Assembly: GCA_027491915.1 (NCBI GenBank)
Contig: JAOZGC010000002.1
Span: forward strand, 248,001-312,000
Source of the DNA: Thermoproteota archaeon
Lineage (GTDB): Archaea; Korarchaeota; Korarchaeia; Korarchaeales; Korarchaeaceae
Direction of reading: 5' to 3'
DNA: 64,000 nt
Numbering within the stretch: the first letter of the stretch is position 1; each line of letters begins with the position of its first letter. Position numbers and translations under genes: made by a program. Under the pieces are notes generated by a model that saw only the letters and a list, made by a program, of their open reading frames with translations, ran no database searches and had not been told where the DNA came from. Below, in pieces: positions 18,286-22,593 of the stretch.

Positions 18286-19230
18286 TCACACCTCCGCTGG
18301 CCCTCCAACGATCCACCCAAAATAGGGTATCCTCAGAGAGACGGCCCTGATGAAGGCCGCCGCCAGCACGTCGTCCGACGCCCCCTCTCTCATCATGGAT
18401 AGGAAGTCTACGTAGCCGTCGTCCCTGAAGAGGCACGGCTTGAACCTCCCGTCGTGGGTTATCCTGATCCTGGTGCAGTGAAAGCAGAAGTCGGAGTTTC
18501 CCATCGGACCCACCACCTCCACCCTCACCCCGCCCACGTCATACACAGGCCTGTTGTGCATCCCCTCCCTCCTGTAGATCAGCCTCCCCTGGAGATCCAA
18601 TTCCGAGGTTATATCCTCCAGGCCCACGCCGTACCTCCTGACCAAGTCGGAATTCGGGTCGGGATCCTCCAACTGAATCAACTGGACGATCGCACCCACT
18701 TTGCGGGCGAAATCTATCAGATCGTCTATTTCATCATCGTTTATACCTCTAAGGACGACCCTGTTTATCTTCACCTGTCTGAAGCCCGCCCTCGAGGCCT
18801 CCCTTATCCCCGCCAACACCCTGTCCAGGGCGTCCACCCCGGTGATTAGCCTGAACCTCTCCCTCCTGAGGGAGGGGAGAGACACATTTATCCTGTCCAG
18901 GCCGGCGTCCGCCAGCCTCCCAACCCTGCCGACGAGGAGGGATCCATTGGTCACCAGGCTCAGATCCCTCACAGAGTTGATCGACGCCACCTCTCGGATG
19001 ATCTCCTCAAGATCCGGCCTGAGGGTTGGTTCCCCCCCCGTGAACTTGACGGCCGACACCCCGAATCTGCCCATGACTTCGACGATCCTCCTGATCTCCC
19101 CGGGGGTCATAAGCCCCGGATCCCTTGGAGAGTACCCTTCCCTGTGGCAGTAGAAACACGAGAAGTTGCAGGCCGGCGTGAGGGAGATCCTGACGTTGGT
19201 CACCGCCCTGTCGAAGGCGTCCCTGAGCAT
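18286..19230 (-). CDS. moaA: MoaA, GTP 3',8-cyclase (radical SAM)
   Basis: MoaA converts GTP to 3',8-cyclo-GTP at the start of molybdopterin synthesis. The radical-SAM cluster motif is C21-x3-C25-x2-C28 (CNFSCFYC). The second, substrate-binding cluster is given by CFHC and RFKPCLF near residues 252-270. GGEPTLRPDL is the SAM-binding GGEP block. The extreme C-terminus lacks the usual GG but ends VGGPAEV. Length 314 residues, normal for archaea. ATG at 19230 lies 34 bases from the start-proximal edge of a perfect 24-base palindrome in its promoter. Confidence 0.94.
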   Translation of the reverse strand: MLRDAFDRAVTNVRISLTPACNFSCFYCHREGYSPRDPGLMTPGEIRRIVEVMGRFGVSAVKFTGGEPTLRPDLEEIIREVASINSVRDLSLVTNGSLLVGRVGRLADAGLDRINVSLPSLRRERFRLITGVDALDRVLAGIREASRAGFRQVKINRVVLRGINDDEIDDLIDFARKVGAIVQLIQLEDPDPNSDLVRRYGVGLEDITSELDLQGRLIYRREGMHNRPVYDVGGVRVEVVGPMGNSDFCFHCTRIRITHDGRFKPCLFRDDGYVDFLSMMREGASDDVLAAAFIRAVSLRIPYFGWIVGGPAEV

Positions 19231-19264
19231 CTTCGACCCTCCGTCCTCCGCCGCCGTCTAGAGC

Positions 19265-19301
19265 CGATATACTCAATTGAGTATATCGATTTGATATAAA
19301 G
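19265..19301 (-). promoter_or_regulatory. moaA promoter with 24-base palindromic operator candidate
   Basis: CGATATACTCAA and its exact complement TTGAGTATATCG span 19265-19288, a perfect palindrome. On the minus strand a TATA-like box (TCTTTATATC, about 19292-19301) lies just upstream, so the palindrome covers the likely transcription start. Half-sites CGATATA/TATATCG resemble ModE-type operators in character, but the protein that binds is not known. A ModE-type DNA-binding protein is encoded at 53289-53669. Confidence 0.65.
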
Positions 19302-19346
19302 AATTGCCGCCCGACCGGGCCTGCCCCCTGCCCTCCACCCACCTAC

Positions 19347-20045
19347 CTACTCCGCTCCCTTCCCCTCCTCAACCTCCCCGGAAACCCATCTCCCCTCGCC
19401 GGAGGGGGAGATCTCCTTCTTCCATATGGGCACCCTTTCCTTTATCCTGTCTACGATCCACCTCAGGGCATCGAAGGCCTCTCCCCTGTGTTCCGAGGCC
19501 ACCCCGACTATCATGACCTCATCGCCGGGTCTCAGGATCCCTACCCTGTGGTGGGCCTCAGCGGCCATCAGCCCCCACCTCTCCTCGGCCTCGGAGACTA
19601 TATCCTCCATCTCACGCACCGCCATCTCACCGTAGGACTCGTATAACATCTCTCTAACTTGAAAATCGCCGGAGTGCTCCCTGACCCTACCGACAAACAG
19701 CGCTATAGCCCCTACATCCCTGGACGAGGATCCCAGGCTGATCGCGACGTCTTCCAGGCGAGGGATTTCCTCCCCGACGCTCACCCTGCCCCCACCGGCC
19801 ACGGGCGGGAAGAAGGCCACCTCGTCGCCGTCGGTCAGCTCCTCTTCCCAGCCGCAGAATCTCCCGTTTCTGGCGGCCAAGATCCTAATTTTTCCGGCAG
19901 AAGAGATCTCTTTGAGATTAGGATGCCTGTCGGCGAGAGCCGAGAACAGATCGCCGACCGTCGCCCCCTCCCCTATCTCCAGGACCTCCTCTCCCACGCC
20001 AGAGAGCTCCCTCACCGTGGCGAACATCCTGACTGTAACCCTCAA
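19347..20045 (-). CDS. MoaD-MoaE fusion, molybdopterin synthase
   Basis: Both subunits of molybdopterin synthase lie in one chain. Residues 1-86 are a MoaD ubiquitin-like sulfur carrier (VTVRMFATVRELSG at the start, EVAFFPPVAGG at 75-85). About 95-232 are MoaE: DVGAIALFVGRVRE, LYESYGEMA, HRVGILRPGDEVMIVGVASEHR and the catalytic lysines in KERVPIWKKEI. For sulfur transfer the MoaD Gly-Gly must be a free C-terminus, so the chain should be cut after G85 or G86, as known for mycobacterial MoaX. TTG at 20045 gives the family N-terminus; ATG at 20027 would remove its first strand. Divergent from the ATL/EndoV gene. Confidence 0.88.
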   Translation of the reverse strand: MRVTVRMFATVRELSGVGEEVLEIGEGATVGDLFSALADRHPNLKEISSAGKIRILAARNGRFCGWEEELTDGDEVAFFPPVAGGGRVSVGEEIPRLEDVAISLGSSSRDVGAIALFVGRVREHSGDFQVREMLYESYGEMAVREMEDIVSEAEERWGLMAAEAHHRVGILRPGDEVMIVGVASEHRGEAFDALRWIVDRIKERVPIWKKEISPSGEGRWVSGEVEEGKGAE

Positions 20046-20108: not shown

Positions 20109-21062
20109 GTGTCCGCGACGCGCCTGAGGCCCATGGAGTCCGAGATAATTAGGGCCGTGGAGTCCATTCCCAGGGGGAGGGTCACCACCTACAGGGAGAT
20201 AGCCGCGGCCCTTGGGGATCCGAGGGCATCCAGGGCGGTGGCCGAGATCGTCAGGAGGCTGGGCCCAGCCCTGGGGATCCCCTGGCACAGGGTCGTCGGG
20301 AGGGACGGCCGGGTGGCCGACCGGCGGGCGGCCGTCGAGCTGTCCGGTGAGGGGGTCCCGGTCGAGGGGGGTTTCGTCCCCCTATCTGACAGGGTGATCG
20401 GCGCGGACGAGTTGGGGGTGATCCCCATCCTGTCTCGGATGAGGAGGGTCCAAGAGAGGATGGCCGAGGAGATATCTCTTGAGGACGGTTTCTCCGAGGT
20501 AGATCTGGCGGCGGGGGTGGACGTGTCCTACGCCTGGGTAGAAGACGGCGGGGTTCCTAGGGAGGTCGCCAGGGCGGCCTGCGTCGTGTTAAACAGGGAG
20601 ATGAGGGTCGTGGACGGCGGGACCCTGGAGGGGGAGCCCCCCATGCCCTACGTGCCGACCTACCTCGGGTTCCGGGAGGTGCCTCTCCTGGCCCCCCTGG
20701 CCAGGAAATTCGACTTCGACGTGCTCATAGCGGACGGCCACGGCCTGGCCCATCCCCGCATGATGGGTGAGGCGTCCCACCTGGGGCTCGTCCTGGGGAG
20801 GCCAACCCTTGGGGCCGCCAAGCGCAGGCTCGTGGGGTGGGTGAGGGGCGACGAGCTGGTCTACCTCGGCAGGGTCGTCGGGTGGGTCCTGCTCCCGCCC
20901 GGCGGGAAGAGGCCGATATACGCATCCCCCGGACACCTAATCTCCATGGAATCCACCCGAGAGGTGGTATACTCCTTCAGGGGGAGGCACAGGATACCGG
21001 AGCCCGTGAGGCTGGCACACAGGCTGTCCAGGTTCGGTCCATCCGGCCGCCGGAGCTCTTAG
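20109..21062 (+). CDS. Alkyltransferase-like (ATL) domain fused to endonuclease V
   Basis: A two-domain DNA repair protein. Residues 9-90 are the DNA-binding half of O6-alkylguanine methyltransferase (IPRGRVTTYREIAAALG, then PWHRVVGRDG), but the methyl-accepting cysteine of PCHR is W59. That makes it an ATL, a family that flips and flags alkylated guanine without repairing it. Residues 105-317 are endonuclease V: VDVSYA (D138), MPYVPTYLGFRE (PYxP wedge and E190), IADGHGLAHPR (D209). EndoV cuts near deoxyinosine. Start could be GTG 20109 (25 bases from the promoter box, leaderless) or ATG 20133 with a GAGG site. AGT-EndoV fusions are known from Ferroplasma. Confidence 0.87.
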   Translation: MSATRLRPMESEIIRAVESIPRGRVTTYREIAAALGDPRASRAVAEIVRRLGPALGIPWHRVVGRDGRVADRRAAVELSGEGVPVEGGFVPLSDRVIGADELGVIPILSRMRRVQERMAEEISLEDGFSEVDLAAGVDVSYAWVEDGGVPREVARAACVVLNREMRVVDGGTLEGEPPMPYVPTYLGFREVPLLAPLARKFDFDVLIADGHGLAHPRMMGEASHLGLVLGRPTLGAAKRRLVGWVRGDELVYLGRVVGWVLLPPGGKRPIYASPGHLISMESTREVVYSFRGRHRIPEPVRLAHRLSRFGPSGRRSS

Positions 21063-21153: not shown

Positions 21154-22593
21154 TTGGCCAGGAGGATCTGGGATCACCCGATACTGGACTTCGAGAGGGG
21201 GGAGCCGCTGAAGCTCATTTTCGAGGGTAGGGAGATAACCGCCTATCCGGGGGAGAGCGTCGCGGCCGCCCTAGTCGCCGAGGGGGTGGACATCCTCGGC
21301 TGGAGCAAGTTGAGAGGGAGGCCGAGGGGGTTCTTCTGCGGGATAGGGAAGTGCTCGTCCTGCCTGATGGTGGTGGACGGCATTCCCAACACCAGAACGT
21401 GCGTGACGCCCGTTTCTCCGGGCATGAGGGTCTCCAGGCAGAGGGGACCCCCTCCCATCCCGGACGTGGTTCCGGAGTTCGACCTCGAGAGGGAGGAGGT
21501 CGACCTGGCCATACTCGGGGGCGGACCGGCCGGGCTGTCGGCCGCGATCGCGGCTGCGGACCTGGGCGCCTCCGTCCTGTTGGTGGACGAGAACTTCAGG
21601 CCCGGGGGTCAGCTGATAAAGCAAACCCACAAGTTCTTCGGATCCAGGGAGAACTACGCCGGGGTCAGGGGAATAGAGATAGCCAGGAGGCTCCTCTCGG
21701 AGGTGGGCGGGCTGGGGGCCAGGTGGGTGCTCCGGTCCAGCGCGGTGGCCGATTACCCCACCGGATCCGGGCACAGAATAGTGGTCAGGCGTCCCGGAGG
21801 GGCTACGCTGGTGGACGCGCGGGCCGTGATAGTCGGGACGGGCGCCTCGGAGAACATGCTCGCCTTCCCGAACAACGACCTCCCCGGGGTGTACGGGGCC
21901 GGAGGATTGCAGACCCTGATGAACGTGTTCGGCGTTCTCCCGGGAGAGAGGGCCCTGGTCATCGGCGCCGGCAACGTCGGCCTCATAGTGGCCTACCAGC
22001 TCCTGCAGGCCGGGGCCCGGGTGGAGGCAGTCGTGGAGATAATGCCGAGGATAGGCGGGTACTTCGTCCACGCGGCCAAGATCAGGAGGATGGGGGTCCC
22101 CATACTGCTGAGGCACACCATCTCCAGGGTGCTCGGCAGGGAAAGGGTTGAGGGGGCCGAGGTGGTGGCCGTGGACGATTCTTGGCGGGCGGTGGAGGGG
22201 TCAGAGAGGACGTTCGACGTTGACATGGTGGTGTTGGCCGTCGGCCTCACCCCCTCCGTCAGGATACCGGCCCAGGCCGGCGCCGATATGATCTACGTCC
22301 CCCAACTCGGGGGGCACGTGCCCGTCCACACACCCAGACTCCTGACCACCCTGGATGGGATGTACGTGGCGGGCGACTCGTCGGGCATAGAGGAGGCGAC
22401 GACGGCCATGCTGGAGGGGAGGATCGCTGGGGCCGCGGCGGCCTCCGATCTGGGATACGCCCCGGATCGGGCGGAGAGGGTGATATCCGAGGCCCAGAGA
22501 CAACTGGAATCGTTTAGATCTGGTCCGTTCAGCTCCAGGGTTTTGGAGGGGAAGGAGATGGTCTGGGAGAAGGCCCGGGAGGTGATAGGATGA
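21154..22593 (+). CDS. Dye-linked proline dehydrogenase-type alpha subunit (FAD, 2Fe-2S)
   Basis: A 479-residue flavoprotein like PdhA of Thermococcales proline dehydrogenase, HcnB and the alpha chain of heterotetrameric sarcosine oxidase. Residues 20-95 are a ferredoxin-like domain with C62, C67, C70 and C83. The first dinucleotide site is LGGGPAGLSAA (121-131), and the second, VIGAGNVGLIVAY, lies near 270. A GDSSGIEEATTAMLEGRIAG block near 405 is the FAD-site end motif. In the family this subunit passes electrons (and may oxidise NADH) while the beta subunit oxidises the amino acid. TTG start. It overlaps the next gene by 4 bases and leads a four-gene operon. Confidence 0.85.
   Translation: MARRIWDHPILDFERGEPLKLIFEGREITAYPGESVAAALVAEGVDILGWSKLRGRPRGFFCGIGKCSSCLMVVDGIPNTRTCVTPVSPGMRVSRQRGPPPIPDVVPEFDLEREEVDLAILGGGPAGLSAAIAAADLGASVLLVDENFRPGGQLIKQTHKFFGSRENYAGVRGIEIARRLLSEVGGLGARWVLRSSAVADYPTGSGHRIVVRRPGGATLVDARAVIVGTGASENMLAFPNNDLPGVYGAGGLQTLMNVFGVLPGERALVIGAGNVGLIVAYQLLQAGARVEAVVEIMPRIGGYFVHAAKIRRMGVPILLRHTISRVLGRERVEGAEVVAVDDSWRAVEGSERTFDVDMVVLAVGLTPSVRIPAQAGADMIYVPQLGGHVPVHTPRLLTTLDGMYVAGDSSGIEEATTAMLEGRIAGAAAASDLGYAPDRAERVISEAQRQLESFRSGPFSSRVLEGKEMVWEKAREVIG

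Follow-up and report, generated by a model that had tools for sequence, protein, structure and literature searches.

The locus examined here raises the question whether an alkyltransferase-like (ATL) domain and an endonuclease V (EndoV) within one chain may form a repair system in which O6-alkylguanine is recognised and the DNA is then cut. The gene is part of a 64,000-nucleotide stretch of DNA (the window) from a Thermoproteota archaeon that is Korarchaeia-like. Domains, residues and ancestry of the fusion and the gene content of the genome, as reported below, are read from sequences and their alignments.

Reading frame and domain layout

The fusion gene (20133..21062, + strand) is an open reading frame of 309 aa with start codon ATG at 20133 and stop codon at 21060-21062; its translation contains GIPWHRVVGRDG. 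Upstream of this ATG the frame stays open, i.e., it spans 467 aa when read from TTG 19659, antisense to moaDE. Homology to relatives starts at ATG 20133, and a possible alternative start (GTG 20109) would extend the protein by VSATRLRP only. The preliminary description had placed the feature at 20109-21062; the end stands, while the start has to be moved to 20133, where the homologous part begins.

On the same strand, an ATL domain (aa 1-82, 20133..20378) is delimited by PF01035 (residues 3-68, E 7.4e-20) as well as by sequence and fold matches to ATLs. It is followed by a linker (aa 83-98, 20379..20426), i.e., the gap between the two domain alignments, and by an EndoV domain (aa 99-300, 20427..21032), for which PF04493 (Endonuclease_5) matches residues 109-297 with E 3.3e-45 and the fold matches that of T. 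maritima EndoV. Given a mean pLDDT of 94.5 and a pTM of 0.89, the AlphaFold model predicts a fixed mutual arrangement of both domains.

The window protein conforms to the order observed in the fusion family, i.e., an AGT-type (alkyltransferase) domain first and EndoV second, joined by a short linker, and the full-length tree gives all these fusions a shared ancestry. Within the window's own family, the ATL-EndoV fusion is present in every genome with a sufficiently complete contig; this recurrence rules out a join introduced by assembly.

The alkyltransferase-like domain and its pocket

The N-terminal part adopts the C-terminal DNA-binding and active-site fold of AGTs, while the N-terminal AGT domain is absent, as in ATLs. 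According to translation and alignments, Trp51 (20283..20285, motif PWHRVV) replaces the acceptor Cys of the PCHR motif that marks an AGT, and the GGY loop of AGTs is missing as well. The best solved sequence match is S. pombe Atl1 (3gva), and the best fold matches (3gva, 3gx4, 2kif) are all ATLs that rank ahead of any AGT. That is, Atl1 and the Vibrio ATL (2kif) are the closest solved structures, but both are stand-alone proteins without nuclease that recruit NER, whereas the window domain is fused to EndoV.

In Atl1, W56, P50 and R69 contact the alkyl group and the flipped base, and R39 and Y25 are the flipping residues (PMC10779285). An ungapped alignment relates Atl1 Y25, R39, P50, W56 and R69 to Tyr20 (20190..20192), the finger Arg34 (20232..20234), Pro45 (20265..20267), Trp51 and Arg64 (20322..20324) of the window protein, respectively, where the equivalence of Arg64 is the least certain of the five, its region being gapped in the fusion alignment. 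The lesion-contact residues are thus the same as in Atl1. Among 82 non-redundant fusions, all five occur together in the window protein alone; four are found in the relative L006 and one or two in the other Trp fusions. The motif, the full contact set and the solved ATLs as nearest relatives support the initial assignment as an ATL-type domain, which is unable to accept alkyl groups.

The endonuclease V domain

The catalytic residues D43, E89 and D110 of T. maritima EndoV align with Asp130 (20520..20522), Glu182 (20676..20678) and Asp201 (20733..20735), the latter two also in the fold match, and PDB chains mutated at these positions (2w36, 6ozg, 6ozf) align at exactly the same columns. The conserved His and Lys of EndoV are kept as H207 and K230 (Lys230, 20820..20822), and the PYIP wedge of T. 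maritima corresponds to PYVP at aa 172-175 (20646..20657). With a TM-score of 0.80-0.84 of target, T. maritima EndoV matches the RNase H-like EndoV fold of the domain, but unlike the window protein it carries no ATL domain. With every catalytic residue in place and the clear PF04493 match, the apparently intact EndoV of the preliminary description is borne out.

As best explanation, which we put forward tentatively, we consider an ATL damage sensor fused to an active EndoV. Here, the HTH of the ATL domain would bind DNA, and Tyr20 and Arg34 would flip O6-alkylguanine into the pocket of Trp51, Pro45 and Arg64, where it would be held and not repaired, such that the tethered EndoV could nick the DNA at the held lesion. 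In this reading, EndoV presumably doubles as the cell's only inosine endonuclease. Lesion binding, its coupling to nicking and the cut position are what we infer from the sequence.

Nearly as likely is a possible reading in which EndoV acts mainly on inosine and deaminated bases, while the former AGT domain serves as a DNA anchor or wedge that increases affinity or the speed of scanning and no longer reads O6-alkylguanine. No EndoV other than the fusion was detected in the window genome, at a completeness of 91%. Furthermore, the ATL domain need not present the lesion to EndoV, which brings a wedge and a base pocket of its own, and extra DNA contacts might allow for faster translocation, an idea given in PMC10779285. 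On the other hand, the complete flipping and pocket set of the window protein would be superfluous for a mere anchor.

Survey of fusion homologues

The comparison of PWHR and PCHR among fusion homologues, which the preliminary description had suggested, was run on the 82 non-redundant fusions. A contig scan with an alignment yielded 80 loci, compared to 0 for a scan with the single protein. Beside the whole family of the window's organism (named members include Methanodesulfokora), archaeal fusions were found in Thermoplasmata, DHVE2/Aciduliprofundum, Micrarchaeota, Diapherotrites, Njordarchaeota and one Bathyarchaeota bin. Bacterial fusions come from Bipolaricaulota/Acetothermia and many Planctomycetota (L099, L103, L104, L113, L123, L131-L133, L136, L221-L240). 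The known range of AGT-EndoV fusions is thereby extended from several phyla of archaea to bacteria; the literature we found mentions archaea only.

The acceptor position holds Cys in 54 fusions, Trp in 22, Leu in 2, and Val, Ser, Ala or a gap in one each. All members of the window's family carry Trp (21/21). The remaining Trp belongs to the planctomycete fusion L132 (codon TGG), and no further planctomycete fusion among those inspected carries it. Nearly all 82 fusions have an intact EndoV, with nearly invariant catalytic residues.

Within the window's family, the Arg finger is Leu in 15 members, Lys in 2 and Arg in 4 (window included), 13 members show PWWR instead of PWHR, and most Trp relatives have also lost the base-flipping Tyr. 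Of the pocket residues, only the acceptor-site Trp is invariant in the Trp clade. The nearest relative of the window protein shows 53% identity overall, with Lys in place of the finger Arg and Phe in place of Tyr20; the window's genus is represented by a single genome in our set.

This pattern bears on both readings introduced above. Since Leu replaces the finger in 15/22 Trp fusions and most have lost the Tyr, recognition of alkylguanine is not required for retention of the domain. An EndoV with near-invariant residues next to a drifting ATL pocket (Leu for the finger, Phe for the Tyr, PWWR for PWHR) is what the anchor role would lead one to expect, although the invariant Trp at the acceptor site suggests that this residue is used. 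For the PWWR relatives, the sequences make an anchor role more likely than alkylguanine sensing. The originally proposed logic, i.e., recognise, then cut, may apply to the window protein with its full contact set and in-chain EndoV, but it cannot be what the whole clade has in common, given Leu finger and PWWR in most close relatives, unless recognition differs there.

Ancestry and selection

A full-length tree of the fusions, built without the motif columns and unrooted, unites the Trp fusions of the window's family in one clade (support 99/87) that is sister to Cys fusions of Micrarchaeota/Diapherotrites (98/93). The planctomycete Trp fusion L132 is nested in planctomycete Cys fusions (100/94). 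In the EndoV-only tree, the Micrarchaeota Cys fusions are unresolved inside the Trp group, from which the full-length tree separates them. A domain tree groups the window's ATL domain with Cys AGT-EndoV fusions (96/94) and not with stand-alone ATLs, although for this short alignment a joint clade with the latter is not rejected (p 0.22).

With a nested Trp clade and a separate planctomycete Trp, the ATL form probably arose at least twice inside existing AGT-EndoV fusions. Since the tree is unrooted, Cys is taken as the ancestral state from its prevalence in stand-alone AGTs. We do not favour two separate fusion events, one for the Trp form and one for the Cys form, as the full-length tree nests Trp among Cys. 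That is, the ATL domain would have been made in place within an older AGT-EndoV fusion, via exchange of Cys for Trp and loss of the active-site loop.

Loss of the acceptor Cys and the GGY loop, together with the further conserved residues lost by several relatives, would also be expected if the N-terminal part were a decaying, functionless AGT remnant. We consider this highly improbable. In one genus that already has PWWR, dN/dS of the ATL domain is mostly 0.02-0.07 (0.22 for one pair) and does not exceed that of EndoV. Such low values show that the domain is functional in that genus, and this strong purifying selection leads us to reject a dead remnant for the family. Trp51 is moreover invariant across the 21 family members, and both domains are equally close to the nearest relative (54% identity each). 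Selection on a PWWR-type domain also fits a job other than lesion sensing, i.e., the anchor role.

Repair genes and gene neighbourhood

The window genome encodes a separate AGT with acceptor Cys (L052, PCHRVI). Another AGT-family protein is found in 27/28 genomes with a Cys-less fusion versus 13/54 with a Cys fusion, counts that rest on incomplete bins and of which the latter is if anything too high (the separate protein of L188 is an ATL with PWQR, and the match in G094 is weak). The association of Cys loss with a separate AGT yields p 8e-11 in Fisher's test and p 2e-4 with one row per lost clade; a strict test on independent pairs, which are too few for a decisive outcome, gives 2 for, 0 against and 2 tied. 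Suicide dealkylation might thus be left to a separate AGT in the lineage of the ATL-EndoV fusion.

No UvrA or UvrC was found above cut-off in the window genome (completeness 91%), and no UvrA in the whole family. The classical hand-over from ATL to UvrA would therefore be unavailable, which makes a nuclease in the same chain more sensible. Given the full pocket and the lack of UvrA/UvrC, alkylguanine sensing appears the more natural reading for the window protein. Extending it to a single-chain, UvrABC-free incision enzyme for O6-alkylguanine, i.e., a suicide AGT turned into a reusable sensor once another AGT is at hand, is a rather doubtful step.

A moaA gene and a fused moaD-moaE gene (18289-20030, - strand) lie divergent from the fusion gene, and an oxidoreductase gene with 2Fe-2S (Fer2_4) and Pyr_redox_2 domains (21154-22590, + strand) follows directly downstream. 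The order moaA, moaDE, ATL-EndoV and FAD/2Fe-2S oxidoreductase recurs in a sister genus (L061). No alkylation-repair gene was found beside the fusion within the window. In another arrangement (L004, L005, also L063, L064), an XPD-type helicase gene (DEAD_2, HBB, Helicase_C_2) directly adjoins the ATL-EndoV gene on its upstream side, in divergent orientation.

Both domains may also have uncoupled jobs, i.e., the ATL domain would flag O6-alkylguanine for excision repair of the XPF/XPD type, while EndoV takes care of deaminated bases. XPF and XPD genes are present in the window genome, the XPD adjacency is found in both species of one sister genus, and S. pombe Atl1 acts via eukaryote-type NER (PMC10779285). 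Still, we regard this division of labour as unlikely: the adjacency is limited to that one genus, the window neighbours are molybdopterin and oxidoreductase genes, and retention of the fusion in every family genome suggests coupling.

Relation to known systems

According to PMC10779285, Tubbs et al. 2009 reported an archaeal ATL-EndoV fusion. It shares with the window protein both domains, their order and the Trp at the acceptor position. We take the reported case to be that of Korarchaeum cryptofilum, i.e., presumably from the same archaeal family as the window. The Korarchaeum-type fusion in our set (L017, genome G007) shows PWWR and has Leu for the finger Arg, Phe for the Tyr and Pro where Atl1 has R69, whereas the window protein keeps all five residues. 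If the reported case is indeed Korarchaeum, an assay on it could mislead, as the Arg finger is missing. The window protein is the best-equipped fusion we found for lesion contact and thus the one to test.

The AGT-EndoV of Ferroplasma acidarmanus likewise consists of the AGT C-terminal domain, without the N-terminal one, followed by EndoV, and has been proven bifunctional (PMC10779285). It has the acceptor Cys and dealkylates directly, which the window protein cannot do.

The preliminary description had presented the repair logic of an ATL version as different from that of known fusions. The reading is plausible, but its novelty does not hold, since archaeal fusions, with EndoV as NER-like nuclease that supplies the incision, are already described (PMC10779285). 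A sensor and a nickase in one chain have been suggested there in broad outline and the architecture is not new, while the mechanism of these fusions, known since 2009, is a matter of speculation only in the literature we found. New are the survey, the nesting of the Trp forms, the link to a separate AGT, the full pocket and the absence of UvrA/UvrC. The survey also indicates that evolution has repeatedly turned an enzyme into a sensor (AGT to ATL) within a fusion, tied to a second AGT.

Further fusions and loci

The Bathyarchaeota fusion (L067, 3001-3933) has Leu at the Cys position and N/T at the positions of EndoV D110/K139, by which both halves look inactive. In L079 and L140, the AGT active-site half is wholly lost next to an intact EndoV, and both genomes encode a separate Cys AGT. 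Unusually long fusion frames are observed for L119 and L139 (668 and 991 aa, respectively). Finally, in the window genome about 3 kb separate the stand-alone AGT gene from a short gene for an ERCC4 nuclease (G000:C4:103040-106638), an arrangement also seen in several relatives.
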